Shown here one piece after another: positions 2,716 through 39,761 of a stretch of 40,355 bases of DNA; positions within the stretch are counted from its first letter, which is position 1, and each line of letters begins with the position of its first letter. Source of the DNA: Sulfurimonas sp. GTDB lineage: Bacteria; Campylobacterota; Campylobacteria; Campylobacterales; Sulfurimonadaceae. Below the pieces are notes generated by a model. That model made no database searches and was not told the DNA's origin. It worked only from the letters and a program-made list of their open reading frames with translations. The stretch covers positions 1 through 40,355 of the forward strand of contig NZ_JABIOQ010000015.1 in NCBI RefSeq assembly GCF_018698455.1, read 5' to 3'. A program made the position numbers and the translations under genes.

Positions 2716-3834
2716 ATGTCTTATTTAAATGAATTAAAACAACTTGTTGACATCAACTCCTATACTAAAAATAAAGATGGGGTGGACAAAGTTGGTGACT
2801 TATTTGGCTCATGGCTTAAATCTCTTAACATGAAGGAATGCATATATGAGCGTGCGATTATAGGTAATCATAGACTGTATAGTTTTCCTGTTGATCATAA
2901 AGCAAAGAGGCTATTGCTTCTTGGCCATCTTGATACAGTATTTCCTCCTGATACCTTTGAAAACTTTTCCCAAGACGATTTATGGGTCTATGGTCCAGGT
3001 GTTTGCGATATGAAGGGGGGGCTTATTGTAGCTTTGAAGTCATTGCAAAAACTTTATGATGATAATATTGAAGTATGTAATATTGACTTTTTACTGGTTA
3101 GTGATGAAGAGACGGGTAGTGATGATTCAAAATTTCTTTCCCAAGAACTAGCATCTAACTATGACTATTGTCTTGTCTTTGAAGCAGCCGGAGAAGCTAT
3201 GGAAGTAGTTGTGGGACGTAAGGGTGTGGGGACCTTCACTATCGATATAAAAGGTTTAGCAAAACATGCAGGAAATCACTATATAGATGGCGTCGATGCT
3301 AATCTTGAGGCTTCTTACAAACTCCAAAGACTTGCGGCTTTAACAGATTTATCTAAAAACACAACTGTAAATGTCGGAAAAATATCTGGAGGTATAGGTG
3401 CCAATACCATTTCTCCTTATGCCTCTTTACTTTTTGAGCTTCGCTACGATAGAGTCGAAGAAAAAGAGCGTGTGCTCTCTGCAATTGAGGAGATTGTTAA
3501 CACTTCTTACATCCAAGGGACAAGTGCTAAGCTTAGTGGTGGTATTCAGCGCGATGTAATGCAAACAAGTGATAATGTCTTAGAGTTTGTAAAAGCTATT
3601 GAAGTTATTACGGGTCAGGCACTCAAAACAGAAAAACGCGGTGGAGTAAGCGATGCTAATATTCTTTCCGCAAATGGTGTTATCACCCTTGATGGTCTTG
3701 GGCCTTTTGGAGATGGAGATCATACAGAACATGAACGAGCACTAATAAGTAGTTTTGATTTACGTATTGATTTAACAAGTAGCATCTTAAAATATTTTAC
3801 AATTAATAAAGGGGTTTACAATGTCTCAATATAA
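2716..3834 (+). CDS. M20-family metallopeptidase (glutamate carboxypeptidase-like)
   Basis: A 372-residue zinc-dependent exopeptidase/amidohydrolase of the M20 family, of the carboxypeptidase G2/ArgE/DapE type. Visible metal and catalytic positions are His71 and Asp73 (GHLDT), the bridging Asp98 (CDMKGG), Glu131/132 (SDEETGS), Glu156 (FEAAGE) and a late His in GDGDHTEHE. A dimerisation-type lid domain begins near 175 with H184/H188 (AKHAGNH). ATG 2716 is chosen because it follows AAAAGGA at a normal distance and because M20 enzymes begin with such a helix; the open frame starts earlier, at 2653. There is no signal peptide, so it is probably cytoplasmic. It is the first gene of the cassette and overlaps the next by 14 bases. 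Likely role by context: removing a residue, perhaps Glu-like, from a product of the neighbouring ligases. The substrate is unknown. Confidence 0.88.
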   Translation: MSYLNELKQLVDINSYTKNKDGVDKVGDLFGSWLKSLNMKECIYERAIIGNHRLYSFPVDHKAKRLLLLGHLDTVFPPDTFENFSQDDLWVYGPGVCDMKGGLIVALKSLQKLYDDNIEVCNIDFLLVSDEETGSDDSKFLSQELASNYDYCLVFEAAGEAMEVVVGRKGVGTFTIDIKGLAKHAGNHYIDGVDANLEASYKLQRLAALTDLSKNTTVNVGKISGGIGANTISPYASLLFELRYDRVEEKERVLSAIEEIVNTSYIQGTSAKLSGGIQRDVMQTSDNVLEFVKAIEVITGQALKTEKRGGVSDANILSANGVITLDGLGPFGDGDHTEHERALISSFDLRIDLTSSILKYFTINKGVYNVSI

Positions 3835-4738
3835 AAGAAGTATAGGAATGTGGATGTATCAAAACAGCGGTGGTTCAGAGATTGAAAGAAAAATCGTGGC
3901 ACAGCTAAAAGAGCGTGAAATAGAAACTATCACGGGTCTTGATCTTCGCTACAGCGAAGCAAGTAGAGATGGTATGTTTTGTCAGGGAATTAATATGTGT
4001 AGCTTAGACCTCTTTTTCTCTTATAATGCAGGAGAACAGACAGTCTCACAAATTTACTTTTACGAGCAACTCAACAAAACAATTGCTACTCTTAACTCTT
4101 TTGAAGCATTTAAACTTAGCGAAGACAAGTTTCAAACAAATATGGCTTTACGTAAAGCAGACATTAATTGTGCAGAATTTTTTCTTTGTCACCGTGAGAA
4201 TCCTGAACGTATAAGAGAGTTGTTCCATAAATGGGGTAAAATGGTTTTTAAACCAGTCGATGGATGGGGTGGTATGGGTATGGCTCTCATTGAAAATGAA
4301 AATACACTTAATACACTTATGCCATTTCTAAACCAGATGGATATTCGCCATTATTATGTTGAAAAGTATATAGATAATGATTATACTGATTTTCGTATAG
4401 ATATAGTTGGTGGTGAGTTCATCGCATGCTATGGGAGACAGGCAGGTGATAGTGATTGGAGAACAAATATTTCTTCAGGTGGAAAAGTAATTATGCGTGA
4501 GCCGAATGAAAAAGTTATTCAACTCGCTATTGATGCAGCGAAAGCGGCAAATATCGATATAGCAGGTGTTGATATACTCTATGATAGAGAACAAGAAAAA
4601 TACATAGTTTTAGAAGTTAACGGTATCCCCGCATTTGCAACACCAGATCAAGAGGCAATTGGGCTTAATTTCAATGACAAAAAGATTCAAAAAATTGTAG
4701 AACTTATAGATAAAAAAACAGCAGGTATAAAAAGATGA
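3821..4738 (+). CDS. RimK-like ATP-grasp ligase
   Basis: A 305-residue ATP-grasp protein. Such enzymes join a carboxylate to an amine through an acyl-phosphate, using ATP and Mg2+. Signs of the fold are the nucleotide-binding segment MVFKPVDGWGGMGM (about 140-153), the paired YVEKYIDNDYTDFRIDI with GEFIACYGRQ (about 180-205), the SSGGK turn, and the C-terminal metal-binding ILEVNGIPAF (about 269-278; the Glu and Asn bind Mg). This layout is closest to RimK and LysX-type amino acid ligases. The start ATG 3821 follows AAAGGGG. It overlaps the M20 gene by 14 bases and the next gene by 4 (ATGA), which implies translational coupling. The acceptor and the amino acid added cannot be read from sequence. 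Confidence is high for fold and low for substrate. Confidence 0.88.
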   Translation: MSQYKRSIGMWMYQNSGGSEIERKIVAQLKEREIETITGLDLRYSEASRDGMFCQGINMCSLDLFFSYNAGEQTVSQIYFYEQLNKTIATLNSFEAFKLSEDKFQTNMALRKADINCAEFFLCHRENPERIRELFHKWGKMVFKPVDGWGGMGMALIENENTLNTLMPFLNQMDIRHYYVEKYIDNDYTDFRIDIVGGEFIACYGRQAGDSDWRTNISSGGKVIMREPNEKVIQLAIDAAKAANIDIAGVDILYDREQEKYIVLEVNGIPAFATPDQEAIGLNFNDKKIQKIVELIDKKTAGIKR

Positions 4739-6066
4739 GCACAAATAAACTACCAAAGATAGGTTTCGTATATTTAGACTATGTTATGCGTTTCTTTGAC
4801 TACAGTAACTTTAAAGGCTGGCCGGAAAAGATTGAAGAAGTGACTTATCATTGGAAAAATGATAAAGATCGTTTTATAAAAGAAGTTAAACGTAAAAAAA
4901 TTGAAGTTCTAATAGGAAATATTCCGGCAACTGCCTATGAAACCTTTAGAGACATTGCCAAAGCATTACCTGAAGTTAGGTTTATCCCATCAATCGAGAC
5001 ACAGTTTTCAAACAAATCTAAAGAGAATGTGACAATATTTTGCGAAAAGCATGGCATACCTATACCAAAAACAAGAATTTTTTATGACTTAGCAAAGGGT
5101 GATGAATATTTAAAAAGTTGTTTTTATCCTCAGATTGTAAAACGATCTTATGGAGCTTCAAATTACGGCGGTTATTTCGTTCACAAAGTAGATAACTACA
5201 AGGAAGCACGAGCACTTTTTGACAAAAAAAAGTACAATCCTATATATACTCAGGACGCAATTCCTCTTAAAGATAGTGGTGATATTCGTGTTATGCTCAT
5301 TGGTCATAAACCTATTTGTGCATTTTGGCGCTACTCGGGAGATGGTGAGTGGATTACCAACACTTCACAGGGTGGAGACATGAATTATAATAATGTACCT
5401 ATGTCTGCATTAGAAGTTGCCGTGCAAGCCTCAAAAGCTGCTAAGGCTGAATTTTGGGCTTGTGACATAGGTATCGATGAAAATACGGGAAAAGCTTATA
5501 TCATTGAGTGTGCTACAGCTTTTGCTGCCTTTCCTTATGTTCGTGACTGGATATGTCAGTATCTTATGTGGGATCTTTCCAATGGAAAATTTAGATTGCC
5601 TCATGTCCCACTTTTTTCTTGGGAAGAACTAGGGAAAATGGATCCAGCTATATTAAGAACACTTCGTCATCTTTATTTTTCTAAGTATACTCCATCAGCC
5701 GATGGAGAAATATATATGAGCGACACTGGGACATTTGACATGGAGCGTACTAAAGAGGGTGACGATTCTATTCTACCAGATGCAAGAAAAGTTATAACAA
5801 ATGAAGAAAAGTTACCTCAAAGTATAAAAGATGCTTCTTCTGCGGGTGAAGAATCAACAGTATTTAAAGATAAAAAGCTTGATTTAACTACAGCAACATT
5901 GACTGATCTGCTCTCCTTGTACGGAATGGATGAAAATGTTGCAATAAAGATTAAATCACTCGTGGACGAGCAAAAAGTTAGTTGCTTTGAAGAGTTATCT
6001 CGCTATAATATAATTTCAGAACAGTATTTGATAAAATGGAGTAAATTCTTTGAGAGAACAGTATAA
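4735..6066 (+). CDS. ATP-grasp protein with C-terminal helix-hairpin-helix tail
   Basis: A 443-residue protein. The N-terminal ~300 residues are a second, divergent ATP-grasp module: an adenine-binding region with YPQIVKRSYGASNYGGY (about 132-148), DSGDIRVMLIG (about 180-190), a TNTSQGGD turn, and IIECATAFAAF where a canonical enzyme has E-x-N; here the second metal ligand is Cys-Ala rather than Asn. About 70 poorly conserved residues follow. Residues ~383-443 resemble a ComEA-type helix-hairpin-helix (LTTATLTDLLSLYGM… then CFEELSRYNI). It pairs with the preceding ligase by a 4-base overlap. The altered metal site suggests changed or regulatory activity. The HhH may bind nucleic acid or a partner protein. 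The substrate is unknown. Confidence 0.8.
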   Translation: MSTNKLPKIGFVYLDYVMRFFDYSNFKGWPEKIEEVTYHWKNDKDRFIKEVKRKKIEVLIGNIPATAYETFRDIAKALPEVRFIPSIETQFSNKSKENVTIFCEKHGIPIPKTRIFYDLAKGDEYLKSCFYPQIVKRSYGASNYGGYFVHKVDNYKEARALFDKKKYNPIYTQDAIPLKDSGDIRVMLIGHKPICAFWRYSGDGEWITNTSQGGDMNYNNVPMSALEVAVQASKAAKAEFWACDIGIDENTGKAYIIECATAFAAFPYVRDWICQYLMWDLSNGKFRLPHVPLFSWEELGKMDPAILRTLRHLYFSKYTPSADGEIYMSDTGTFDMERTKEGDDSILPDARKVITNEEKLPQSIKDASSAGEESTVFKDKKLDLTTATLTDLLSLYGMDENVAIKIKSLVDEQKVSCFEELSRYNIISEQYLIKWSKFFERTV

Positions 6067-8632
6067 ATCATATAAACAAACTCAAGATTTTTTTTATAAT
6101 GCTCAAAAAAAGTTTCCGAATATATTCCGTGTTGAAGTTATAGGCAAAACATGGGAAGACAGAGATATTATTATCGTGACAATCTCTAGGGATCTAAAAA
6201 AAGCTGACGATAAACCGGCTCTTCTATATACTGGAAGTATTCATGCAAGAGAGTGGATTGGAATTGAACTTGCCTATGCATTTGGGGAGTACATTCTAGA
6301 GCATATTGAATATGATCCCGCCCTAAATACTGCTCTATCAAATGCTACACTATATATGGTACCTTGTGCAAACCCTGATGGATTTGAGTTCTCACGCACA
6401 CATTTCTCTTTTTGGCGAAAAAATCGTCGTCATAATGCAGATGGAAGCTATGGTGTTGACTTAAACAGAAACTTTTCTATTGGTTATGCAGCTAGTAGAG
6501 ATACATATTCTAATGTCTATTCTGGACCTCAACCTTTCTCAGAACCTGAAACCTTAGCCTTAAAAAACTTTGCACTAAGTCATCCAAATATTTCAATAGC
6601 TTTAGATTACCATTCTCAAGGTAATGTTATTTTCCCTGCTCATAATTTTAAGCATGAAGATGCAGTTGATGCAGTTGACTTAAATACACTTGCTGCAAAC
6701 ATGTCGGAAGAGATACGTAAAGTATCAGGGCGTGAGTATGGTGTTCATATGGGGAAACCACCTGTTCGCCTTATTAGTGGTAGTGGTCGTGAGTTTTACT
6801 ATTCATTGGGCGCATTAGCTCTTACTGTGGAAGTGGGTACACGAAATATTTCCGACTATATAGGAAATATGACTGAACATATTAATGAGCATGTCCCCGC
6901 TTTGATATATGCTCTGGTTGAAACTGTTAACTATGATAAACAAAAGGCTTTTAATCGTGTAGAAAATTTTTCTGCTCACAAAATTTCTATATCAAGAGTT
7001 GAGCTTTCGTGGGAATATCCAAATGACCCAGATTTCTATTTTGAAATATATAGAAGCAGCAAAGAGATTAGCCACTGTCAGGCATCAAATTGTGTTGGAA
7101 CTACTAAGGCTAAAACATATATAGACAATCATTTAAGCCCAAGCACAAGCTACACCTATTTTATTCGTGCAGTTTGCAAAACAAATCATGTAAAGTCACC
7201 TTTTGCCCAGAAAATAACTGTTAGAACACTTAGTGATATAGATTCTTTTTCTAAAATCCTTTTTCCTTCACAAGAAAAGATTGGTTATGTTGGTGAAAAA
7301 AGTAGTATTAATGCTGAACATTTTGGATACAACTCTCTTTTTGTTGGTATTTCAAAAAATCGTGGAGTATGTTATGGACTCATAGGCTTCTCGCTTGATT
7401 CAGTTCCCGATAATGCTATAATAACTGACGCAAAAGTGTCTCTTTTCCCTATAGACAGAGTCAATGTGCAAGTCGAAAAATTTGGTGAGTGGAGAATAGG
7501 TATTTTAGATGAAATAAACGGAAGTTTATCTTCATTTAATGCTATTAAAAATACACGCATATTATCATATATTGATAGACCCACTAAATCACATCAGCTT
7601 ACTCAAGGTATCTGGAGGACATGGGCCTTTGCAAAAAATGAACGTGATCTTCTTCAAGATGCTCTTAAGCGCAGAGAAGTAATCTTTAGAATGGATGGAC
7701 CAACAAGTCTACCTTTAGATAGATCTTCTCAACTGATGCAGTGGGATATAGGGTTTGCTAAATTTAGTGGTGGCTTGGACTACAGACCAAAGTTAGAAGT
7801 TACCTACACTGTTCCTGGGGGTAAACTAGAAGTTGTCAGTTCTGTAATCACAACTATTTCAGAGGAAAAAGTTGAAACAAATAAGTTAGAAGTAGGCTTT
7901 GATAAAAATGGCTCAGCACAATATGGCTGTATTGAATTTAACTTGGATGTTTTACCTGATATAGAGAGTACCGTGATATCAAATATTTATATAGAAATGG
8001 ATGCTAGCAAGATAGCATCAACACAAAATTTACGCTATCATGTAGAAATGATTAGTCCCACATGTACAGAGAAGAGTATCGCAAATATCCAAATACGCGA
8101 TACTATTGAACGTATTGGATACGATGTAAGTATTGAAGATATTAAAAAAGAGCCAACACAGCGTTTTGTATTTGACACTTATGCTATTTCTCAACTCATA
8201 GAAAATATAAGAGCTCAGAAAAAGTTACTCTTTTTATTGTTACCTACTAGTGAGAGGAGCTTTTCTGGCTCTCAAATAACTAGTTGGAGTGATGATAAAA
8301 ACCAAATGCAGCCACGCCTTAAGATTGAATATATAAAAAAACGTCGTAATGGTGTTCAAGCTGTAAGCAATTTAAAATATGAAATTGAAAATGCTATGAT
8401 TAAACTCTCGTGGACTAATCCTAAGGATAAGGACTTCGAGGGTGTTATCGTAGTTAAAAATTCCTTTCATATGCCTTGCTCACCTTATGATGGGCAAAAA
8501 CTTTTTGGTGGGAAAGATACTTATACATTTGATAATTTTGGGGCTCTAGATGAAGATAAATATTATGCAGTATATACATACGATAATGTACCAAATTTTT
8601 CTGAAGTAGCTTCTATTTTCTACAAAAAATAA
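6050..8632 (+). CDS. M14 zinc carboxypeptidase with FN3 and DNRLRE-like domains
   Basis: An 860-residue multidomain protein. Residues 1-290 form an M14 carboxypeptidase domain: zinc ligands His65/Glu68 (GSIHAREW) and His188 (DYHSQGN), substrate-anchoring Asn139-Arg140 (LNRNF, matching Asn144/Arg145 of carboxypeptidase A), and catalytic Glu261 (TVEVGTRN). About 303-393 is a fibronectin type III-like domain. Two similar beta-rich domains of DNRLRE type follow (about 402-585 and 595-765). A second FN3-like domain ends the protein. TTG 6050 is taken as start: it sits after GGAG, overlaps the previous gene by 17 bases, and the M14 fold needs these first residues. No signal peptide or anchor is seen, although such accessory domains are usually found on exported proteins. 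Probable role: trimming C-terminal residues from the product of the two ATP-grasp ligases. Confidence 0.85.
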   Translation: MREQYKSYKQTQDFFYNAQKKFPNIFRVEVIGKTWEDRDIIIVTISRDLKKADDKPALLYTGSIHAREWIGIELAYAFGEYILEHIEYDPALNTALSNATLYMVPCANPDGFEFSRTHFSFWRKNRRHNADGSYGVDLNRNFSIGYAASRDTYSNVYSGPQPFSEPETLALKNFALSHPNISIALDYHSQGNVIFPAHNFKHEDAVDAVDLNTLAANMSEEIRKVSGREYGVHMGKPPVRLISGSGREFYYSLGALALTVEVGTRNISDYIGNMTEHINEHVPALIYALVETVNYDKQKAFNRVENFSAHKISISRVELSWEYPNDPDFYFEIYRSSKEISHCQASNCVGTTKAKTYIDNHLSPSTSYTYFIRAVCKTNHVKSPFAQKITVRTLSDIDSFSKILFPSQEKIGYVGEKSSINAEHFGYNSLFVGISKNRGVCYGLIGFSLDSVPDNAIITDAKVSLFPIDRVNVQVEKFGEWRIGILDEINGSLSSFNAIKNTRILSYIDRPTKSHQLTQGIWRTWAFAKNERDLLQDALKRREVIFRMDGPTSLPLDRSSQLMQWDIGFAKFSGGLDYRPKLEVTYTVPGGKLEVVSSVITTISEEKVETNKLEVGFDKNGSAQYGCIEFNLDVLPDIESTVISNIYIEMDASKIASTQNLRYHVEMISPTCTEKSIANIQIRDTIERIGYDVSIEDIKKEPTQRFVFDTYAISQLIENIRAQKKLLFLLLPTSERSFSGSQITSWSDDKNQMQPRLKIEYIKKRRNGVQAVSNLKYEIENAMIKLSWTNPKDKDFEGVIVVKNSFHMPCSPYDGQKLFGGKDTYTFDNFGALDEDKYYAVYTYDNVPNFSEVASIFYKK

Positions 8633-8757: not shown

Positions 8758-10119
8758 CTAAGCATGGCCCTTCAGAAGAGTTGCCCAATACTCTTTTTTT
8801 GTCTCATAAAGGTCATATTTCCATAAACTCTCACTTGAAAGTTGAGACATTTTTGTGTTCTCTACTAAACCTTGATAGTCAAACTCTACTAGAATTATTT
8901 TTCCAAATGCAACTTTAATTGGACAGACTGAATAGCCTGTGAATTTTTCGATAAGTTTAGTTTTAGTAATTACAGAGAGTAGGTTTTTCTCAATAATAAG
9001 AGCTTGTGCCGCAACAGTAGCGACCGTTTTACCAAGAGGAGTTCCACAGATGTCTCCTATGCCAAATATATTTGGATACTTAGAGTGCTGAAGGGTCTCA
9101 AGATCAACATCTAACCATCCTTTAAAATGTCCATCTTCTACTGCAAGTTCTGATTCTCTAATATCTTTTGTCGCTGACATAGGGGGAACTATATGGATAT
9201 AATCATAGTGCATTTTTACAATTTCTGTTTTTTTAGTAATACTTTCCCACTCTTGAAAATCTGGATCCCAACCAGTTTTAATTTCATACTTATGTTGATA
9301 GGTTGCAATCTTCTTTTTAGTATCTATCTCTATTAGGTTATGGCGAAATTTAGTTTGAAGAGAAAGGTACTCTTTTTGAACTAAATGAAGTCTTTTATCT
9401 ACATCTTTTAATCCAAAAAGTCGTTTTGAATTTGTAGTGTAAGTTAGCTTAGCACTTAAAGAGTGCTTTTGTAGATAGTCTGCAGTAAGGTAGGCCATTT
9501 TTTGTGCAACTGCTCCACATTTTACAGGAGTATTTGGCATGGTATAAAGGATATGAATATCTTTATTTTTCGCTTCTTCTTGGATAGACTCAAACCATTT
9601 TAGAGTTGAACTGCCACCTTTAGCCGTTCCTTTATCTGTATCATTGAGATAAACACTTGCAATATTTTTGGTACCTATGTCTTCTTTATGTAATCCCTTT
9701 ATCCATTCATAGTGATACTCAAGTCCTGTTGCAACTATGAGATAGTCATATTCTACTGTTTGTCCATCTTGTGTAGTAATAGAGTTCATCTGGGGTGCAT
9801 AAGATTTGACTTTATCTTTTATCCAGATTACATCTTTTGGTATATAGTTACTGTTATTTTTGATGATTTCATCTGTTTCATAGACTCCAGCCGCAACATA
9901 TACTTGACCAGGTTGGTAAATATGCTTTTCATTAGGGGCAATAATAGTAATTTTTGGATTATGGAATATTTTTGAGAGTTTAGTGAGGATAGTAATAGCA
10001 CCAGTTCCTCCACCTATAATGAGAATCCGTGGAGAAGGAGAAGACTTTGAAGCATACAGAAGTGATGCGACTAAAGGTGAAAGACTAAGAAGCCTTATTG
10101 CCTTACGCCTAGTAATCAT
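8758..10119 (-). CDS. sqr: Sulfide:quinone oxidoreductase-like flavoprotein with Tat-type leader
   Basis: A 453-residue FAD-dependent oxidoreductase of the SQR/flavocytochrome c sulfide dehydrogenase family. SQR oxidises sulfide to sulfane sulfur and passes electrons to quinone at the membrane. The start is set at ATG 10119, giving ITRRKAIRLLSLSPLVASLL: twin arginines at 4-5 and a hydrophobic stretch, hence a likely Tat leader. Other signs are the FAD Rossmann motif GGGTGA (36-41), Cys201 in PVKCGAVAQK, Cys358 in FGIGDICGTP (at or near the two redox cysteines of human-type SQR), and YSVCPIK…EFDY near the end. The two-cysteine pattern resembles type II (eukaryote-like) SQR more than the classical type I. 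It overlaps the preceding gamma-carbonic anhydrase gene by 11 bases. An FCSD flavoprotein subunit without its cytochrome is the main alternative. Confidence 0.8.
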   Translation of the reverse strand: MITRRKAIRLLSLSPLVASLLYASKSSPSPRILIIGGGTGAITILTKLSKIFHNPKITIIAPNEKHIYQPGQVYVAAGVYETDEIIKNNSNYIPKDVIWIKDKVKSYAPQMNSITTQDGQTVEYDYLIVATGLEYHYEWIKGLHKEDIGTKNIASVYLNDTDKGTAKGGSSTLKWFESIQEEAKNKDIHILYTMPNTPVKCGAVAQKMAYLTADYLQKHSLSAKLTYTTNSKRLFGLKDVDKRLHLVQKEYLSLQTKFRHNLIEIDTKKKIATYQHKYEIKTGWDPDFQEWESITKKTEIVKMHYDYIHIVPPMSATKDIRESELAVEDGHFKGWLDVDLETLQHSKYPNIFGIGDICGTPLGKTVATVAAQALIIEKNLLSVITKTKLIEKFTGYSVCPIKVAFGKIILVEFDYQGLVENTKMSQLSSESLWKYDLYETKKEYWATLLKGHA

Positions 10120-10630
10120 TTTTAAAGTCCACATATCGCAGTGCACCTGCATAAAGTTCTGCGACTTCTGCATCTGTTAACTCTCTTACAAATTTAGCGG
10201 GACTTCCCATAATAAGTGAACGCGGAGGAAAAACTTTTCCTTTAGTAACAAGTGAACCAGCACCAACTATGCTTTCTGTACCTATGACAGCATTATCTAG
10301 TATAGTTGCACTCATACCAATGAGACAGGCATTTTCAATTGTACAACCATGAAGCATAACTCTGTGACCAATTGTTACATCATCACCTATTATAGTGGGA
10401 CTTCCATCACTTCTATCTGCTTTTTTATGATGAGTAATGTGTACCATACTTAAATCTTGAATACTTGTTCTTGAACCAATAGTAATATAATGAACATCGC
10501 CTCGAACAACTGTTCCAAACCAGATAGATGAGTCTTCACCTATTGTAACATCTCCAATGACATCACAAGATGGTGCTAACCAAGTATTCTTACCTATAGT
10601 TGGTGTCGTACCCTTAAAAGTATGTATCAT
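10109..10630 (-). CDS. Gamma-carbonic anhydrase family protein
   Basis: A 173-residue left-handed beta-helix protein with repeated hexapeptides (for example IGEDSSIW, IGSRTSI, IGDDVTI, IGTESIV). Zinc-binding histidines fit MVHITHH and GHRVMLHGC, as in YrdA/PaaY/gamma-CA proteins, which are trimeric with metal sites at subunit interfaces. A carbonic anhydrase role would suit an autotroph, but many members have no proven activity. Its ATG is one base after the ppk stop, and its 3' end overlaps the sqr-like gene by 11 bases, so the three genes form one operon. Confidence 0.88.
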   Translation of the reverse strand: MIHTFKGTTPTIGKNTWLAPSCDVIGDVTIGEDSSIWFGTVVRGDVHYITIGSRTSIQDLSMVHITHHKKADRSDGSPTIIGDDVTIGHRVMLHGCTIENACLIGMSATILDNAVIGTESIVGAGSLVTKGKVFPPRSLIMGSPAKFVRELTDAEVAELYAGALRYVDFKNDY

Positions 10631-29047: not shown

Positions 29048-29408
29048 ATACCTACAAGATTAAAAGTAGATATTGCTGGTTATCAATCGTGGTGTAAATC
29101 GTTGTAATATTTTCAACTCAGATGTTGATAAAGATATGTTCTTACAGATTTTAAATAAAAGTGCTACTTTAAATAAAGTCATTATACATGATTACTGTTT
29201 GATGGATAATCATTATCATCTGCTTATAGAGACTACAAAAGAGAATTTACCTGTACTCATGCGTACTATAAATGCTAACTATGCAAAATATTTTAATAAG
29301 AAATCTAAACGCAGTGGACATCTTTGGCAAGATAGATACAAGTCTAAATATATCACTTCTGAGGATTATCTATATAGACAGTGGCAAAAAATAATCCGCT
29401 TGCATTAG
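29048..29408 (+). pseudogene. Broken REP-associated (Y1) tyrosine transposase
   Basis: The reading frame MLVINRGVNRCNIFNSD…DNHYHLLIET…SGHLWQDRYKSKYITSEDYLY is a Y1/TnpA-REP transposase with its His-x-His metal motif (HYH). The family's first residues are in another frame upstream: codons from 29048 read (I)PTRLKVDIAGY, so the former start codon is now ATA at the right distance from AAGG. Comparison with the usual AGYYHVINRG shows that about 11 bases are missing near 29080, which breaks the frame. Homology stops at about 29374, where only the first ~110 of the usual 150 or more residues are present, and the sequence runs into the next gene. Three lesions make this a pseudogene. Confidence 0.8.
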
Positions 29409-30067
29409 AAGAACTTTTAATCGCTTACTCAAATTATCTTTCTAATCCTAAGTTAGAAAAGCAGTTGTCACAAATAGTTTCACAAATTAAAGACCCAAAG
29501 GTTGAAAACTTTGCACAAGATCTTGCAACCTCAGAAGATAGACAACAAAACATTATAGGATTTGATTTATTAGGTGAATTGCAAATTCCTAATGAGAAGA
29601 CACTTCAGATTTCAACAGAGGCTTTATCACAATTTAGTGGGGATAAAGAACTTACACTTTCAGCACTTCATGCAATGCCACACCTTAATCTTCCTCAATC
29701 CAAAAATAATGAGATTGTTATGCTGTTAAGTGAACTTAGTATTAGCCAGGATGAGGCTGTTCGTTCTGAAAGTATTATCACACTAGGTCAATGGGCTAAA
29801 TCAGAGTTAGAAATTAGTGCAGTTGTGGATGCACTAAGCAGTAGTACTAATGATGATAGAATAAGTGCCGCCATAGCACTTGAACAAAGTCATGTTGTTG
29901 GAAATAGTTTAAAAACTGTACTTTTAGAAAAACTTGAGGATACAGCAGAATTATGGGAAGTTCGAGCAATGAGTGCAAATTCTTTAGAAAGGTTTGATTT
30001 AAATAATAATGAGTTTAGTATATTAGAGAATTTTAGGAAAAATCAAGTTGGTGGTGTGAAAAATTAA
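29381..30067 (+). CDS. HEAT-repeat-like protein, probably truncated at the N-terminus
   Basis: A 228-residue all-helical protein whose repeated units (for example ISTEALSQFSGDKELTLSALHAM, RSESIITLGQWAKSELEISAVVDAL, RISAAIALEQSHV) look like HEAT repeats, generally used for protein binding. The only start is GTG 29381, inside the last codons of the broken transposase and without an SD. A stop codon lies just upstream in frame. This suggests the 5' part was lost when the transposase 3' end was also deleted. It is probably a pseudogene or a poorly expressed fragment. No specific role can be given. Confidence 0.5.
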   Translation: MAKNNPLALEELLIAYSNYLSNPKLEKQLSQIVSQIKDPKVENFAQDLATSEDRQQNIIGFDLLGELQIPNEKTLQISTEALSQFSGDKELTLSALHAMPHLNLPQSKNNEIVMLLSELSISQDEAVRSESIITLGQWAKSELEISAVVDALSSSTNDDRISAAIALEQSHVVGNSLKTVLLEKLEDTAELWEVRAMSANSLERFDLNNNEFSILENFRKNQVGGVKN

Positions 30068-30161
30068 TTGTAAGGTTTTTGAGGTGGTGGCCAATCTCTC
30101 TACCACACTAAATCCACTTTGTGCCTATAAATAGGTGTTTCTTCGTTTCTTGAAAATTCAA

Positions 30162-30183
30162 GGGTAACAAAGAGGGTAACAAA
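30162..30183 (+). repeat. Tandem GGGTAACAAA direct repeats
   Basis: GGGTAACAAA occurs at 30162-30171 and again at 30174-30183, 12 bases apart. Such short spaced repeats are seen at recombinase arm sites, but no integrase gene is present here. Confidence 0.5.
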
Positions 30184-30333
30184 AGAACAAAGTACCCCAA
30201 CCAGTTTTGGATGAAATAACTTGTAGAATTGTACGTCATTTTTCTTAAAATTAAATTATATACTAATTTCCACAACCTTTCATTGAGATTACTTTTTAGG
30301 TAAAAACTACAAAAAACCAGGTATATACTATGT

Positions 30334-30354
30334 AGAGATATATAGCATATCTCT
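30334..30354. repeat. 8-bp inverted repeat
   Basis: AGAGATAT and ATATCTCT flank the loop ATAGC. It lies 12 bases before the larger inverted repeat. Confidence 0.45.
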
Positions 30355-30366
30355 CAAATCCTCTCA

Positions 30367-30415
30367 CTACACACAACAATCATAAAACTTTCTACTTTAC
30401 AATTATTGTGTGTAG
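30367..30415. repeat. Long inverted repeat (14-bp arms, 21-base loop)
   Basis: CTACACACAACAAT (30367-30380) and ATTATTGTGTGTAG (30402-30415) pair over 14 positions with one C-A mismatch. The loop is pyrimidine-rich (ACTTTCTACTTTAC). It is not followed by a T-run, so terminator is unlikely. A binding site, origin-type or transfer-type element of the mobile module is possible. Confidence 0.6.
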
Positions 30416-30526
30416 CATAAAGGTGTACTCTATGTACTACTACCTCTTAAAGTATCTGAAGATACAAGTTCCAAATAAACCAGCAAATAATCCAAATTAC
30501 TATCCATTTCTTACAGGAGCATAATC

Positions 30527-30610
30527 ATGCCATTGAAAGAAATAGCAAAAATATTTGTAGTGCTTATTGTAATAGTTGCCGAGATAATCGGTCAATCATC
30601 TAAAAAATAA
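30527..30610 (+). CDS. 27-residue hydrophobic small protein
   Basis: ATG 30527 follows AGGAG at 30515-30519, encodes KEIAKIFVVLIVIVAEIIG as a single membrane helix and ends in Ser-Ser-Lys-Lys. Its stop overlaps the SD of the DUF932 gene, so it is the first gene of that operon. The function is unknown; a regulator, toxin-like peptide or translational coupler are options. Confidence 0.5.
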   Translation: MPLKEIAKIFVVLIVIVAEIIGQSSKK

Positions 30611-30622
30611 GGAGACAAAACT

Positions 30623-31432
30623 ATGTCTATATTACCATTAAACGAAACTCAACTAAAAACTCAAGCCCCTGCACTCTTCACAGAGGAACCACACTACGAT
30701 GTTAGTGATAAATATCACTTCGTCTCAACTATAGATGTTATTAATGAAATAACGTCTCTTAACTGGTATCCAGTCTCAGTAGAGCAATCATCAGTCAAAG
30801 ATGAAGATAAAGAGGGATACCAAAGACACCTCGTTCGCTTTCGTCACTTTGATGACCTACTTAATCCACAAGAAAATGCAGTTGAATTATTATTGTTCAA
30901 TAGCCATGATAGAAGTACAGCATTTTCCATAAGTGCTGGAATCTACCGCTTTGTCTGTTGTAATGGACTTGTTATTGCAGAAAGTGTATTTGAATCTTAC
31001 AAGATAAAGCATATAGGAGACAGATATAACGACATACAAACTGCGATAGACAAGATAACTTCTTTCAAGCCACAACTTCAGCAGAAAATAAATAGCTTTG
31101 AGTCTATTACACTCTCTCAACAAGAAAAAGAATCGTTTGCTCGTTCTTCAATTCCACTTAGATTTGAAAAGCATCTGCAAATAGACTTCAAAGACTTACT
31201 TGTTCCACACAGAGATGAAGATAATAAAGATGATCTCTACACAACACTCAATGTGATCCAAGAGAATTTACTTCGTGGAAATATATCTGGAGTTAACAAT
31301 ATAACAGGTCGTAGGTTTACCTCTCGTGAGATTACTTCCATCAGTAAAGACATAGACGTGAACCAAGGAATTTGGGATATTTCGGAGCGTATAGCTTTAA
31401 TAAAACAGCCTAGAATGGCATTAGCAGCATAA
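30623..31432 (+). CDS. DUF932-like protein of plasmids and phages
   Basis: A 269-residue protein with the family hallmarks VRFRHFDD, VELLLFNSHDRSTAFSISAGIYRFVCCNGLVIAE (in the central third) and a helical C-terminal half. DUF932/DUF945 proteins are common on plasmids, phages and integrative elements; their biochemical role is not settled. The start ATG 30623 follows AAGGAG. It is followed by the Gp157-like and RAD52-like genes with 11-base gaps, which implies one operon devoted to mobile-element DNA metabolism. Confidence 0.75.
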   Translation: MSILPLNETQLKTQAPALFTEEPHYDVSDKYHFVSTIDVINEITSLNWYPVSVEQSSVKDEDKEGYQRHLVRFRHFDDLLNPQENAVELLLFNSHDRSTAFSISAGIYRFVCCNGLVIAESVFESYKIKHIGDRYNDIQTAIDKITSFKPQLQQKINSFESITLSQQEKESFARSSIPLRFEKHLQIDFKDLLVPHRDEDNKDDLYTTLNVIQENLLRGNISGVNNITGRRFTSREITSISKDIDVNQGIWDISERIALIKQPRMALAA

Positions 31433-31443
31433 GGAAAAATAAA

Positions 31444-32034
31444 ATGAAAATGACAAACTATAGATTACAAACAGAGATAGAACACTTAACACCACTAAGC
31501 CAAAAAGATTGGTTTAAAAACTATGTAAAAGAGGTACTTGAAAGCGATAAACCATACCATGTAAAAGCAGACTACATAGGATTATCGTTCCAGGAACTAC
31601 AAAACAAGATTGATTATCTATCATCAGATATTAAAGAGCTACAGGCTCTTAAAAGGACTCTCACACAATCAAAAACTTTAGCACAAGAAGTTACAGCTGC
31701 TATTCTTCTAGATTATGGAATTGACCGCTTAGATGGAACATCAATATCTAGTATAACAATCCAAGCACATAAAACTAAGCTCAAAGAAACATTCAAAATT
31801 ATAAATGCAGAAGCACTTATTAAACTAGGGTTTTACACAGTAACTGTGGATGAACAAGCAGTCAAAGATGCAATGCTCACAGTTGAAGGTATGGATGAAA
31901 TAGATGAGTTTGTAGAGGTTGGTGTAACAAGTGAAGAAGTCCCAGCAAAAATTAAAGTAAACGCCAGAAGATCTAGCCAAAACAACCAAGCTACAGAACT
32001 ACTGAATTTAGTAGATTCTCAAGAAGCAGCATAA
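31444..32034 (+). CDS. Gp157-like phage protein
   Basis: A 196-residue protein. Residues ~45-85 are a coiled-coil-like helix (LQNKIDYLSSDIKELQALKRTL), followed by a short beta-rich part (LDGTSISSITIQAHK) and VDEQAVKDAM. This order, long helix then SSITI-type strand then a motif with Asp-Glu-Gln-Ala-x-Lys-x-Ala, resembles siphovirus Gp157/host-nuclease-inhibitor-like proteins that accompany single-strand annealing proteins. The match is by pattern, not alignment. It lies directly before the RAD52-like gene, 11 bases away. Confidence 0.55.
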   Translation: MKMTNYRLQTEIEHLTPLSQKDWFKNYVKEVLESDKPYHVKADYIGLSFQELQNKIDYLSSDIKELQALKRTLTQSKTLAQEVTAAILLDYGIDRLDGTSISSITIQAHKTKLKETFKIINAEALIKLGFYTVTVDEQAVKDAMLTVEGMDEIDEFVEVGVTSEEVPAKIKVNARRSSQNNQATELLNLVDSQEAA

Positions 32035-32045
32035 GGAGCAACAGA

Positions 32046-32780
32046 ATGTTCAACGATAAACAAACACAAGTTCTAGCCTATGAGCTAGACAGTAGTAGAA
32101 TAAAGAGTCGCTCAAAAGGTAATATTTCACTCTCTTACTTAGAGGGCTTCGATATTATTGAAACAGCCAATAAAATATTCGGTCATGGTAATTGGGGTTA
32201 TTCTATATCATCATTACAGTCAGTATCTCAAGAGCAGAACCAAAACCAAAATAATGTTATCTGCTACAAAGCAGTTATTAACGTAGTGGTTCATGATCTG
32301 CAACACTCTAAGCATGTAAGCAGAGAGGATGTGGGGTTTGGTACAGGTATTGCAAAAACCCTAGCAGATGCACATGAAGGTGGAGCTAAAGAAGCAGTTA
32401 CGGATGCTATCAAACGCACACTTAGAAGCTTCGGAAATCAGTTTGGTAATTCTCTATATGATAAGAGCCGTCAACATCAAAATCAGCAACAGACATATCA
32501 ACAACCTGTACAGTTACAACAGCAATCACAGCAACAGAAGCATTACCAACAGCCACAAACTCAGCAAGTGGAAAGTAATCAAGGGGCCTATTCATTGCAA
32601 GAATATACATCTATACTAAACCTAGGGTTACAGATTCTTGAGCAAGGAGAGAACATAGTGATTATTGGAGATAAAAATACTATATTCAATTCCAAAGATA
32701 TTATTAAGGCGTGTTCTTTCAGGTGGAGTAATGAAAATCGACAATGGTATAAACAAAAATATCAGCAACAGGCTGCATAA
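32046..32780 (+). CDS. RAD52-like single-strand annealing protein with a C-terminal extra domain
   Basis: A 244-residue protein. Residues ~1-140 match the RAD52/22 annealing core: LSYLEGFDIIETANKIFGHGNWGYSI, EDVGFGTGIA, and HEGGAKEAVTDAIKRTLRSFGNQFG. Such phage proteins anneal complementary single strands in recombination. Residues ~147-185 are a Gln-rich linker. The last ~55 residues (…IFNSKDIIKACSFRWSNENRQWYK) look like a small separate domain with the CSFRW…QWY pattern found in some phage and plasmid proteins. SD AAGGAG precedes ATG 32046. No exonuclease or SSB gene is adjacent. Confidence 0.88.
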   Translation: MFNDKQTQVLAYELDSSRIKSRSKGNISLSYLEGFDIIETANKIFGHGNWGYSISSLQSVSQEQNQNQNNVICYKAVINVVVHDLQHSKHVSREDVGFGTGIAKTLADAHEGGAKEAVTDAIKRTLRSFGNQFGNSLYDKSRQHQNQQQTYQQPVQLQQQSQQQKHYQQPQTQQVESNQGAYSLQEYTSILNLGLQILEQGENIVIIGDKNTIFNSKDIIKACSFRWSNENRQWYKQKYQQQAA

Positions 32781-34537: not shown

Positions 34538-36625
34538 TTATACTTTTATATAAGTAACCTCAAATCCTTTACATCCACGATACTCTTGTAATCTATTACT
34601 TAAACTAAAAGTATTATTCATATCATACTGCTGATAGATATCTAAACCACGATCAAGTGATATCTTCCAACCTGTATCAGTGACTACACTTCTCGCATGT
34701 ATAGTTTCAGTCGTATCAAATTCCCAAGTGAAAGTTACACCTGCTGGCATTGCTGATTGTTGTATTTGAGTGAAGAAATCTACTTGTCCTTCTGGATTTC
34801 TATCATCTGCTATTGTAATTAGATGCACAGTTACAACATCTTCAACAGCTTTATACTTGATAACTGTTTCTATAAACTCCATCATATTACGAACTTGAAA
34901 GAAGATTCTTACATAAGGATCTGTAATCACTATCTCAGAACTGCCTTTTAAATACTCTCCAAACAGATTGTCATAAGTGATTCCCTTTTGGTTTTCACTA
35001 AACTCAAGGTGTTGTTCTTTAAGTTCTAAGCTTTTCTCTTCTTTAGCTACTGGAGTATCTTCGTCCTCCACAAGTTTATCAGCATTAGATTTTACATCCC
35101 CTCTATCTTTAGGAATGTACAACTCCTCGTTATTAGAATCTATAGTTATGCTTCTATGATAGTAGTTAGGATACTCATCTTCTTCAAGAGTTGTAACAGG
35201 ATACTTCTTCCCTTCTTTATCTTCATAGTAAAACTTCGTCTCTTGGTAAGTAGAGTCTATTCTCATGAGTTGGTCTTTAACTCTTTTTCGTCCTTCTATT
35301 GCGAATCTTAAAATCTCTTCTATCTCTTTCACTGTAGCACCATCGTGAGGAAACATGACTTTCATTAAGCCAGAGAATGTTTTGTTAATCCCATCTCTAT
35401 CTCTTGTTGAGATTTCATTAGACAGTGTAAAGTGTTCAGCATATCTATCTGAGTAGTCATCATTTCTAAGTGAGCGAAGTATCTCTGCAATGTAATCAAC
35501 CACAAATCCATAACCATCAGAAAACATCTCCCCACGAACAATATCTATCTCCCAGCCTGGTAAATAGAAGTGAAGACGATCTAAAAATGCTGAGTCATGA
35601 TACTTAGCAGGTACTTCTTCAAAGAGATCCGAATGTTTTAACATATAAGGTACTGGATGAGCGGTATTTCCAACAAAGACCATTGAAGCTTCCGCACCTA
35701 GTGTTTCTATCCCTCTTGAAAATGATTTATTTGCCATGTAGTTTTTCATAATATCTACAAGAGCTTTATCTACCTTTTTAGCTTGACCTGCAAACTCATC
35801 AAATGCTACAACATTCCAGTAACCGACAAGTCCTAACTTTCCATTAGCATTATTTACAAATAGCTTAGGAACCGTTACTTCTCCACCCGATATTAAAATT
35901 CCATGAGGAGAGAACTCTGAATAGATGTGAGATTTACCAGTTCCTTTTGGTCCAAGTTCTATGATGTTATAGTTTCTCTCGCAGTACGGTATCAGTCTTG
36001 AGAGCTGCATCATCTTGTTGCGTTTACCAAACATCTCAGGATTAAATCCCATACTCTGAATAAGTAAGTCTATCCACTCATCGGTACTAAACTTCTTTCT
36101 AGCTTCTATATAGCTATCGTAGTCAAAGTGAGAGAGTTGAATAGGCTTTAAAGACGAAAGAGTCCATGGTGTTACATTACCATCTTCTGAATGATCATAC
36201 TCTACATCAGCGATACACCAAACACCACCAACAAGTAGTTTAGGGTGTGCTTTTACAGTACCAGAATCTACAAGTATTTTCTTGATTCCAAGGTTACTAA
36301 ACTCAGCTTCATAAGTATCATTTTTATCATTAAGTTCTACACTGATTTTGTCAATGACCTTATGCTTACGACCTTTCTCTTTAATGACAGATTTAACAAG
36401 TCCAGCTTCATTACGATGAACATAGTGATCTCTGAGAATATTCTTTACCATCTCTATACCAGCTTGGATAGTCTCTTCATCATTTGTTGCACAGTATTGA
36501 CCTAATAGATACTCTAAAACATAGGTTGGAACAATAGCATTTCCCTTAACAGCTTTAACAAGGTCTTTTCTTACTACTAAGCCTGCAAAGACTTCATTGA
36601 TTTTCTTATCGAGTTCATTCATCAT
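34538..36625 (-). CDS. brxL: BREX protein BrxL (Lon-like AAA+ protein)
   Basis: A 695-residue BrxL, the Lon-protease-like component of type 1 BREX phage defence. The AAA+ core has Walker A GPKGTGKSH (about 230) and Walker B VVAFDEFAG (about 277). The N-terminal region is BrxL-specific (LGQYCATNDEE…), and the C-terminal ~180 residues form the Lon-protease-like domain (EYLKGSSEIVITDPYVRIFFQVRNMMEFIETV). BrxL forms a DNA-bound oligomer and in some systems acts in phage restriction. It starts 11 bases after the pglZ stop and is the last gene of the operon. ATG 36622 is an alternative start. Confidence 0.95.
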   Translation of the reverse strand: MMNELDKKINEVFAGLVVRKDLVKAVKGNAIVPTYVLEYLLGQYCATNDEETIQAGIEMVKNILRDHYVHRNEAGLVKSVIKEKGRKHKVIDKISVELNDKNDTYEAEFSNLGIKKILVDSGTVKAHPKLLVGGVWCIADVEYDHSEDGNVTPWTLSSLKPIQLSHFDYDSYIEARKKFSTDEWIDLLIQSMGFNPEMFGKRNKMMQLSRLIPYCERNYNIIELGPKGTGKSHIYSEFSPHGILISGGEVTVPKLFVNNANGKLGLVGYWNVVAFDEFAGQAKKVDKALVDIMKNYMANKSFSRGIETLGAEASMVFVGNTAHPVPYMLKHSDLFEEVPAKYHDSAFLDRLHFYLPGWEIDIVRGEMFSDGYGFVVDYIAEILRSLRNDDYSDRYAEHFTLSNEISTRDRDGINKTFSGLMKVMFPHDGATVKEIEEILRFAIEGRKRVKDQLMRIDSTYQETKFYYEDKEGKKYPVTTLEEDEYPNYYHRSITIDSNNEELYIPKDRGDVKSNADKLVEDEDTPVAKEEKSLELKEQHLEFSENQKGITYDNLFGEYLKGSSEIVITDPYVRIFFQVRNMMEFIETVIKYKAVEDVVTVHLITIADDRNPEGQVDFFTQIQQSAMPAGVTFTWEFDTTETIHARSVVTDTGWKISLDRGLDIYQQYDMNNTFSLSNRLQEYRGCKGFEVTYIKV

Positions 36626-36636
36626 CTACTTACCTT

Positions 36637-39099
36637 TTAAAATTCATCAAATTCGTTGAAGTGTGAAAGCTTCAATTCTGTATCTACTTCTTTATAGACA
36701 GGTTCTTCACTACTATTTGATAGCACTCTTTTTAGAACTAATGTTACAGTTTCATTGTTGTGATGGTTAGCATTCTCTTTGAAGTAAAAGACTACTGATT
36801 TCTCACGATTTCTACTATCTGTATGTTCACTATCAAATGTGATTGTTTGCGACTGTGTTAAAAGCTCTCCACTTTGAGTAAGAAAAGCTGCTTTTAAAGT
36901 GATAGGCTGTATTTTTTTACTTACTGCTTCTTTTTGATAGAGAGATATTTTAATGCTGTTGGTAGTAATCTTAGGAATACTCATCACTTCAACTTCTACA
37001 AGGCTTATATCATCACTTCTTTTTTTACGGATACTAATAAGAGGAATTACTAACTCTTGAAGAGAAAAGCTTCCATGAACAAATCTATTTCCACCACCTT
37101 GAACTCTCATTTTATTTATAGAGTTTGCGAGTAGTATATCGTTACTACCTTTGATATTTAATTCAGTAGAACTAAACTTTTGAGTACAGTTATCAGCTTC
37201 TAAATCTTTACCTATGATAAATCTACGGTTCATTTTTATAGGCTTTACTATGTCCTTGAATTTACAGAACTCACTCTCATCTGTAGGAGTGTTTTGATAC
37301 AAGAAACCATGATCCGCAGTTACTAAAATATTACTACGGTTAAACTGTGAAGTTTGCTTGATAAGCTTAGTGATAGTCTCAAAGCTACTCTCTACAGCAT
37401 CAAATACTCTCTCTTCACTCGATAGTTTGTCCCCAGTAGAATCTATCTCATCATGATAGATAAATATGACTTTATTCTCTTTAACAAATGCTCGTCCATC
37501 ATCACGATTAAGAGCTAAGAAGTCCTCATCACTTATAGCGATAGAACTTTTATAGTGCGACTGTAAAATCTTTGTACGATTTGCTATACCACTGCTTCTA
37601 AGACCATCTGCATAGACTATATCGTCTTTATCTTTTAACTCTAGCTCTTTATGTGGAAGTAGTGATGCCATACCTAACTGAGTATATGATGGAAGAGAAC
37701 AAACCATACTCTCACACTCTGTACTATATCTATTGATAGAATCAAGCTTAGAGCTTAATTCTGCTCCACACTCATAACGAAGAGCATCAGAGATGATAAC
37801 TACAACATTGTCATCCTTATCTATAAATGGCTGAATCTTTTTTTGGAAGAAATCTCTTTGATGCATAAAACCTGTGTTAGAATACTCAGGTATAAAGTTT
37901 TGAAACTTCTCATTAACTACTCGTAAATATCCATTTTTATAGATATCTTCAACTTTTGAGTCAAGCTCTTTGAGTATGTGTATATGTTCGGCTTTGTTAG
38001 TATGATAGATGTACTTTCTGTAAAAGAAGTCAAGCTTTTGCCACTGGTGCGTGTATCTATTTACTGCATCGTCAAAACTCTCACAACTGAAGCGTTCACT
38101 TTTAATGTTTTGAATAAGTAAAGACCCATAAAGAAGTGATTTATAGATATTTTTATATCCATCATACCAAAACGTATGCTCTCTAGCTTCTACAATATTA
38201 CTTACTTCATCCGAATTTATATCATCAGCAACTATCTTGTTTTTTACATGTAATATAATTGCCTTTTCACAAGAGTTATAGGTATCGCAAAGAAGTAGTT
38301 CATTGTGTTTAAGATCATTAACAACTCCATCTACATGTAAAGCTTCTGCAACTTCTGTTGCTTTATCTCTATAGCACTCTCCATAAGTTTTACTATCCAT
38401 CCAGCTACGGACTAAAAGCATAGCTTCTCTGTTGAGTGCAGTTTTAGTAGAATCTACTCCCCAGAAGAAATGATTTTGCAGTAGCTTGTATGTGAAGTCT
38501 TGAAATGAAGGAGTATCCGCTTTATAAGAATATGCACTAAGTAAAATACCCCACAGTTCTTCTTCTAAGTCCAGCTTCTTGAGTGTTTCTAAATACTTCT
38601 CACTTTCTTGTAGTCTAAGCACTATAATATTAACAGAGGCATCGCAGCCAATACTTACAGCTATCATCTTCATTATAAGTGTTTCTTCATCATCGCTAGG
38701 ATTTAAGAGTGACTTTAAAGACTCAGCTCTCTTTGCTGCATTGAAAAATTTCATATATTTCGAGATGGCATTTTTGTAGCTCATATCAAGACCAAGTTCA
38801 CTTACAGTAAGACTTATCTTATCTGCATAGAAGACATGGCTTGAGAGAAGAAGATCTAAGAGCCAGTTATCATCATCTTGTGGTTGTTTTGATGGGCTAT
38901 ATATAAGAAACTTATCATTAGGGGATTCTTTTAGGAGCTGATACTTAATAGAAAACTCATTACCATCAAGTGTGACTTTTTGCACATCATCTAACTCAAG
39001 GGTGTTAAACTCTTCTTGAAGCTCTGCACCACCATCGTACCAGAAGATGAGTCTGTTATGATTGAAGTGTGATTGTAGTGTTTGTTGTATTTTACTCAT
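36637..39099 (-). CDS. pglZ: BREX-1 protein PglZ (alkaline phosphatase-like)
   Basis: An 820-residue PglZ. The N-terminus (SHFNHNRLIFWYDGGAELQEEF) is typical of BREX-1 PglZ. The central part contains the alkaline-phosphatase-superfamily segments VVVIISDALRYECGAEL (about 430-446) and ILVTADHGFLYQN. Metal-dependent nuclease or phosphatase activity has been proposed for the family. Its ATG overlaps the stop of the HEPN-like gene by four bases (39096-39099). Its length is normal. Confidence 0.95.
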   Translation of the reverse strand: MSKIQQTLQSHFNHNRLIFWYDGGAELQEEFNTLELDDVQKVTLDGNEFSIKYQLLKESPNDKFLIYSPSKQPQDDDNWLLDLLLSSHVFYADKISLTVSELGLDMSYKNAISKYMKFFNAAKRAESLKSLLNPSDDEETLIMKMIAVSIGCDASVNIIVLRLQESEKYLETLKKLDLEEELWGILLSAYSYKADTPSFQDFTYKLLQNHFFWGVDSTKTALNREAMLLVRSWMDSKTYGECYRDKATEVAEALHVDGVVNDLKHNELLLCDTYNSCEKAIILHVKNKIVADDINSDEVSNIVEAREHTFWYDGYKNIYKSLLYGSLLIQNIKSERFSCESFDDAVNRYTHQWQKLDFFYRKYIYHTNKAEHIHILKELDSKVEDIYKNGYLRVVNEKFQNFIPEYSNTGFMHQRDFFQKKIQPFIDKDDNVVVIISDALRYECGAELSSKLDSINRYSTECESMVCSLPSYTQLGMASLLPHKELELKDKDDIVYADGLRSSGIANRTKILQSHYKSSIAISDEDFLALNRDDGRAFVKENKVIFIYHDEIDSTGDKLSSEERVFDAVESSFETITKLIKQTSQFNRSNILVTADHGFLYQNTPTDESEFCKFKDIVKPIKMNRRFIIGKDLEADNCTQKFSSTELNIKGSNDILLANSINKMRVQGGGNRFVHGSFSLQELVIPLISIRKKRSDDISLVEVEVMSIPKITTNSIKISLYQKEAVSKKIQPITLKAAFLTQSGELLTQSQTITFDSEHTDSRNREKSVVFYFKENANHHNNETVTLVLKRVLSNSSEEPVYKEVDTELKLSHFNEFDEF

Positions 39100-39758
39100 C
39101 TTTTTTCTCTTTTTGCATCATCTAATAATAGCTTTATATTTTTATCAAGGTTAATTTCTTGCCATCCCTTAAGGACATAATTTTGTAAACAAATTGGAAT
39201 AACTTCTTTGTTGCCCACATTTCCATGCCAGATAAGATTCACTAAAATAGATATATACTTTTTCAGAATCATATCTACAATTTCCCAAGAAACTTTTATT
39301 ACATCAGGGATACCTGAATAATCTAAATCCTTTAATTCAAGAATTTGCACAATATGATCATGAATACTAAAGGTATCCGCACTATAAAGATCAAAATTAG
39401 TATAACGATTCTCATTTACTAAGTCTGTCAATATCTCCAACATCTTTTGAATATAAATATTCTCAGTATCATTAAAACTAAAGTGAAAATATAGATGTTT
39501 GTTGTGAATATCTAAAATTTTATGCCCCAATTTATTTTTCAATCTATTACTTGTTACTTGAGTTGAATTTTTAGTATTATAATCCAGCATATATACGATT
39601 TTTTGAAGCCTTTCAACACCTGTTGCTTGAAGTAATAGATAAGCGTATAAAGTGGCAAATTCAGGATCCTGTTCTATGAGAGTATTAGCACCCTTAAAGA
39701 ATGAACATAGTCCATCAATGACTTCATCATTCAACTTCATTTTTTGGTTTGTTGTCAT
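39096..39758 (-). CDS. HEPN-like protein inserted in the BREX operon
   Basis: A 220-residue, mostly helical protein lying between pglX and pglZ, which are usually adjacent in BREX-1. The sequence LLLQATGVERLQKIVYML followed by RLKNKLGHKI (Arg-x6-His) fits the HEPN pattern of a helix with the G-x-E-R motif and the Arg/His pair, seen in RNase or accessory domains of defence loci. It starts 3 bases after the pglX stop and overlaps pglZ by four bases, so it is co-transcribed. Codon use is more A+T-rich than in its neighbours. Possible roles: an RNase effector, an AbiV/MNT-HEPN-like partner, or a regulator of the methyltransferase. HEPN is inferred from motif only. Confidence 0.6.
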   Translation of the reverse strand: MTTNQKMKLNDEVIDGLCSFFKGANTLIEQDPEFATLYAYLLLQATGVERLQKIVYMLDYNTKNSTQVTSNRLKNKLGHKILDIHNKHLYFHFSFNDTENIYIQKMLEILTDLVNENRYTNFDLYSADTFSIHDHIVQILELKDLDYSGIPDVIKVSWEIVDMILKKYISILVNLIWHGNVGNKEVIPICLQNYVLKGWQEINLDKNIKLLLDDAKREKR

Positions 39759-39761
39759 TTA

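Follow-up and report, generated by a model that had tools for sequence, protein, structure and literature searches.

Cassette of two ligases and two peptidases

We analyzed a 40,355-nucleotide stretch of a Sulfurimonas sp. genome (contig NZ_JABIOQ010000015.1 of assembly GCF_018698455.1; hereafter, the window) and focused on four adjacent open reading frames (ORFs) on the + strand at positions 2716-8632. They encode an M20 peptidase, a first and a second ATP-grasp ligase (which we call AG1 and AG2), and an M14 carboxypeptidase. A sequence-only reading of this DNA had assigned the four genes to these families, with overlaps of 14, 4, and 17 bases at the M20/AG1, AG1/AG2, and AG2/M14 junctions, and the ORF calls and Pfam matches (Peptidase_M20, RimK ATP-grasp twice, and Peptidase_M14) bear this out. 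The fibronectin type III (fn3) and jelly-roll domains of M14, the C-terminal tail of AG2, and another AG2 gene beside efp in the host genome go beyond that reading.

The M20 metallopeptidase gene (2716..3834, +; PF01546, E 2.6e-19) starts with the ATG at 2716, in a reading frame that is already open from a TTG at 2653. AG1 (3821..4738, +; 305 aa) is a RimK-like ligase (PF08443, E 9.7e-22, 77.9 bits; RimK structures, E 1e-14). AG2 (4735..6066, +; 443 aa) is a LysX/ArgX/RimK-like ligase with a C-terminal extension (PF08443, E 6.4e-13, 49.2 bits; the cut-off for both is 21 bits), and its predicted model is nearest to 3vpb. The M14 gene (6050..8632, +; Peptidase_M14, E 2.3e-53) begins with a TTG codon at a position that agrees with its homologues. 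In its predicted model, a carboxypeptidase domain (residues 1-300) is followed by an fn3 domain, two jelly-roll DNRLRE-like domains, and a further fn3-like domain.

Conservation and distribution of the cassette

The sequence-only reading had suggested that a conserved system would keep the order M20-ATPgrasp-ATPgrasp-M14 in unrelated species, and that genes found mostly apart would speak against one. We scanned for AG2, which yielded 143 related stretches and 80 retained loci, and counted gene content at the 51 AG2-family loci whose flanks were long enough on either side. All four genes are present at 41 of these loci, with 35 in the same-strand order M20-AG1-AG2-M14 and six with M20 on the opposite strand. 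The remaining ten comprise four partial cassettes and six solitary AG2 copies. Median intergenic distances across cassettes are 11, 1, and 9 bases, which is operon-like. The order recurs in unrelated species with unrelated flanks, and the cassette is a real conserved unit and not a product of chance. One locus (L187; G015:C242) has the rearranged order AG2-M20-AG1-M14, with AG2 upstream.

Carriers belong to Campylobacterota and Thiomicrorhabdus and, separately, to Photobacterium, and include many deep-sea and sulfur-cycle bacteria. Full cassettes were found in Thiomicrorhabdus heinhorstiae (L052) and on a Photobacterium sp. DA100 replicon that is recorded as a plasmid. A Desulfuromusa metagenome-assembled genome (L075) carries the first three genes on a contig that ends before any M14. 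The AG2 family is present in 32 of 298 Campylobacterota genomes (a count that takes in efp-linked AG2 copies) and in 1 of 321 from the class that includes Thiomicrorhabdus; the cassette is rare outside Campylobacterota. This patchy spread, together with signs of horizontal spread, would suit a scavenging or housekeeping peptidase operon in which the ligases act on unrelated substrates and the co-location is selfish or accidental. We consider such an operon unlikely, because the parts co-occur even at separate loci and the features of M14 and M20 match the likely amino acid of the ligases.

Flanking genes vary by lineage: Sulfurimonas cassettes are flanked by the rplS operon, those of Arcobacteraceae by argG and a hexapeptide-repeat gene, and many other flanks are singletons. 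The L19 neighbor (the rplS product) was confirmed by Pfam, and argG and the other neighbor names are our own reading of the sequences. The window itself has a hexapeptide-repeat (gamma-carbonic-anhydrase-like) gene near the cassette at 10109-10630, and a relative of this gene is the immediate cassette neighbor at 15 loci, mostly in Arcobacteraceae. In several Sulfurovum-type cassettes (L106, L110, L111, L112, and L201; cluster c23/k29), the gene after M14 encodes a repeat protein of about 466 aa, which reflects either lineage synteny or a partner of the cassette.

Predicted specificity of the peptidases

M14 has the equivalents of the zinc and catalytic residues H69, E72, H196, R145, and E270, and the zinc ligands, R145, and E270 are invariant. 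The specificity position 255 of bovine carboxypeptidase A (CPA) corresponds to R247 (codon at 6788..6790, +), which is Arg in all cassette members in an alignment of 40 homologues. Five non-cassette M14 relatives in the same alignment, two of which align poorly towards the C-terminal end, have Thr, Ile, Asp, Thr, and Asp at this position; CPA4 has Ile and an insect carboxypeptidase B has Asp. In carboxypeptidase O (CPO), Arg255 leads to a preference for acidic C-terminal residues, and a Xenopus paralogue with Arg255 cuts FA-Glu-Glu but neither FA-Phe-Ala nor FA-Phe-Phe (PMC9925722). The cassette M14 shares with CPO the HxxE, His196, R145, and E270 equivalents as well as Arg255, and it lacks the Tyr248 of CPA. 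The Arg at position 255 points to an acid-type pocket and predicts a preference for acidic C-terminal residues.

Unlike CPO, the cassette M14 is bacterial, apparently cytosolic, and fused to fn3 and jelly-roll domains. No signal peptide was apparent by inspection in the M14 homologues, which begin directly at the catalytic domain, so all four cassette proteins are likely cytosolic. The accessory part of M14 spans about 560 residues and comprises the fn3 domain, jelly-roll regions weakly similar to DNRLRE, and the fn3-like C-terminus. Predicted strands suggest the approximate boundaries of the later domains and the fn3-like character of the C-terminus.

The solved structure nearest to M20 is carboxypeptidase G2 (1cg2, E 9.5e-26), at a score of 94 bits that indicates moderate similarity only. 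Carboxypeptidase G2 releases glutamate from folates. The two enzymes have catalytic and metal residues in common, and the M20 metal and catalytic residues H71, D98, E131, E132, E156, and H336 are invariant. M20 also scores 179.5 bits on PRK06133, a curated glutamate carboxypeptidase model, under its cut-off of 349.

Two ligases with different active-site motifs

AG1 residues R192 and N267 match the glutamate contacts R189 and N262 of Pseudomonas aeruginosa RimK and are invariant. By comparison with RimK, N267 closes the E-V-N metal/glutamate motif (E265-N267; 4613..4621, +). The best NCBIfam match of AG1 is MptN, a tetrahydromethanopterin:alpha-L-glutamate ligase (E 4.9e-39, below cut-off), and CofF is also listed.

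The matches of AG1 to MptN and CofF and the resemblance of M20 to a hydrolase that frees glutamate from folate raise the possibility that the cassette acts not on a protein but on a free acidic peptide, for instance short poly-alpha-glutamate, or on the glutamate tails of a small molecule or cofactor, which it would both produce and recycle. Free poly-alpha-glutamate is also a product of RimK (PMC11957791). We regard a non-protein substrate of this kind as possible, though doubtful. The matches lie far under the equivalog cut-offs, and the compared neighborhoods of the cassette share no conserved transporter or cofactor gene. The accessory residues of M14 and the helix-hairpin-helix (HhH) tail of AG2 look suited to macromolecules.

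AG2 keeps the glutamate-contacting Arg (R185) yet has E-C-A (E258-A260; 5506..5514, +), invariant within the family, where RimK-type ligases have E-V-N. Its model aligns with 3vpb (ArgX-LysW-Glu) over 265 residues at Z 21.7 and a root-mean-square deviation of 3.2, and with RimK at Z 21.0, which is a tie. LysX and ArgX are the closest sequence and fold relatives of AG2, and M20 is similar to ArgE/DapE-type deacylases, as would be expected of LysW-like, carrier-protein amino acid biosynthesis by a LysX/ArgX ligase and a LysK-type M20 hydrolase. However, the cassette has no kinase, reductase, or aminotransferase steps, and such a pathway has no role for M14. LysW was found in none of 41 genomes, while 4 of 14 controls were positive (Thermus, Deinobacterium, Haloferax, and Sulfolobus). 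The absence of LysW largely refutes a LysW-dependent lysine or arginine pathway, and we consider carrier-protein biosynthesis of this type very improbable.

The HhH-like tail of AG2 covers about residues 380-443 (5872..6063, +), with predicted helices at 389-436 at a model confidence (pLDDT) mostly above 80. A Pfam search of this tail gave no match, but the homologous tails of L071, L015, and L002 pass the HHH_3/HHH_5 cut-offs (L015, HHH_3, E 4e-27; L002, HHH_5, E 3e-8). The tail could bind rRNA or tRNA. At one locus (L065:14247-15164), a second AG1 copy lies downstream of M14 and is followed by a stand-alone HhH protein of 145 aa, as though the tail of AG2 had split off into its own gene.

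Split cassettes beside rplS and efp

The host genome carries a second AG2 (AG2'), 68% identical over residues 4-328, directly downstream of efp (G000:C24; L113:6692-8817). Among Sulfurimonas relatives, 24 loci have AG2' on the strand of efp and downstream of it, within 91 bases at 21 of them. Many Sulfurimonas have a split cassette, with M20-AG1-M14 behind rplS (ribosomal protein L19) and AG2' behind efp. In the tree, the AG2' copies are nested among the Sulfurovum/Photobacterium-type sequences and separate from those of the window type, and the M14 and M20 of split cassettes are closer to the window type. Apparently, one ligase was swapped for a relative placed elsewhere and the set was still retained.

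The separated parts co-occur. Among 119 genomes, 40 have both AG2 and M14, 71 have neither, and the discordant classes hold four each (Fisher p 2e-22); excluding genomes with linked AG2, the counts are 17/4/4/71 (Fisher p 9e-12), and both p values ignore shared descent and are inflated because the genomes are related. Of the four genomes that have M14 without AG2, three have no efp in the assembly either, which suggests one missing contig holding both.

EpmA, which carries out canonical EF-P lysylation, was not found above cut-off in any of the 119 relatives; the full-length matches occur in open reading frames of roughly 500 aa, which is the length of lysyl-tRNA synthetase. An efp-adjacent AG2' in genomes with no EpmA above cut-off is a possible lead on EF-P modification in its own right.

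A putative cycle of acidic tagging

We propose, with moderate confidence, that the four proteins run a cycle in the cytosol, attaching acidic residues (most likely L-glutamate) by amide bonds and removing them again, with RimK-like chemistry. AG1 and AG2 would work in sequence or on two sites, with one starting the tag and the other extending or branching it. M14 would cut C-terminal acidic residues off the tag, and M20 would take short or last residues to free glutamate. The target is probably a protein, onto which the AG2 tail and the M14 accessory domains may dock the enzymes. The sequence-only reading had offered the writing and erasing of a peptide or amino acid tag, or the making and recycling of a small peptide. 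The tag gains ground from the M14 Arg255, the carboxypeptidase G2-like M20, and the RimK residues of AG1, which point to acidic residues and favor writing and erasing over a generic peptidase operon. The ligases also belong to a superfamily whose members attach glutamate or aminoadipate, which suits such a cycle. The second option of that reading, a small-molecule or free-peptide substrate, remains a candidate.

Our leading, though tentative, guess for the target is the translation machinery, because in Sulfurimonas the cassette lies behind rplS and the relocated AG2 behind efp. In its most specific form, which we regard as speculative, AG1 and AG2 would write a reversible acidic tag on EF-P or a ribosomal protein and M14 and M20 would erase it, a bacterial counterpart of tubulin glutamylation and deglutamylation.

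Several observations weigh against these proposals, in addition to the shared descent behind the Fisher tests. Neither AG1 (130.0 bits) nor AG2 (65.8 bits) reaches the rimK_fam TIGR00768 cut-off of 143.4 bits. The Asn of the E-x-N motif is missing from every AG2-family member, so the chemistry of AG2 may differ. Aspartate or another acid would fit as the added residue. Relatives that lack AG2' at efp differ from one another in their efp-dnaE junction: in several, dnaE directly follows efp, and others have a longer, variable spacer, some with a full cassette elsewhere. We give the efp link less weight for this reason. The adjacency to efp may be a single insertion inherited by descent, and the same may hold for rplS. 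The neighbors of many other cassettes are unrelated to translation. Finally, the C-terminal tails of ribosomal protein S6, compared in 20 genomes that carry the cassette and 20 that lack it (two in the second group gave no readable S6), mostly end in acidic residues and show no clear difference.

Comparison with known systems

No known pathway that we compared accounts for all four genes. The closest parallel is the Pseudomonas RimK-RimB system (RimABK), which polyglutamylates ribosomal protein S6 and removes the modification (PMC11957791, PMC7343187). Both systems place a RimK-superfamily ATP-grasp ligase and an eraser peptidase in one operon and are linked to acidic residues. However, the RimABK eraser is a retropepsin-like endopeptidase, whereas the cassette has an M14 exopeptidase, an M20 enzyme, and two ligases. 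The cassette contains no RimB retropepsin, its peptidases being M14 and M20; the rest of the genome was not searched for RimB.

In eukaryotes, tubulin is modified by tubulin tyrosine ligase-like (TTLL) ATP-grasp writers and M14 cytosolic carboxypeptidase (CCP) erasers. The cassette shares this logic of ATP-grasp writer and M14 eraser, but its M14 is of the CPA/CPO type and not a CCP, and its ligases are RimK/LysX-like. With LysX/ArgX-LysW-LysK, it shares the AG2 fold and an M20 hydrolase beside ATP-grasp ligases, but it lacks LysW and the other pathway genes and has M14.

Models of the GAK and NAGGN osmolyte systems gave scores of 76.5 versus 300 bits (TIGR04356) and 32.2 versus 569 bits (TIGR03103). 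PADLOC anti-phage defense models gave no match beyond a marginal one of AbiTi to AG1 (E 0.006), and PHROGs returned generic relatives only. A partial literature search found no published system combining ATP-grasp, RimK, M14, and M20, although prior mention in a 2009 amidoligase survey is possible, and the literature that we saw on related ATP-grasp systems does not mention this gene set. Apparently new, in that we did not find them described, are the gene set, an acid-type eraser of the CPA family in which no secretion signal is apparent, and the use of two ligases; the chemistry resembles that of RimK/RimB and TTLL/CCP.

Other genes in the window

A partial BREX anti-phage system occupies the - strand at 34538-40355. 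It includes BrxL with an MIT_C phospholipase-D-like C-terminal domain (34538-36625, -), PglZ (36637-39099, -), and the C-terminal end of PglX, which runs off the window (39762-40355, -); an unmatched ORF of 220 aa is listed between PglZ and PglX. A piece of an IS200-like transposase (29073-29408) and DUF932, weak Gp157-like, and Rad52/22-family proteins (30623-32780) form a gene mix at 29073-32780 that is frequent in phage or mobile elements.

Implications for bacterial protein modification

RimK/RimB is the single well-studied case of writing and erasing in bacterial protein polyglutamylation. If the acidic-tagging cycle proposed here is true, it would be a second, phylum-wide system with another eraser chemistry and two writers, and it would show that reversible acidic tagging is a strategy that recurs among bacteria. 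Because AG2 is linked to efp and the remaining genes to rplS, whether the target belongs to translation can be tested directly, and in a group without EpmA above cut-off.

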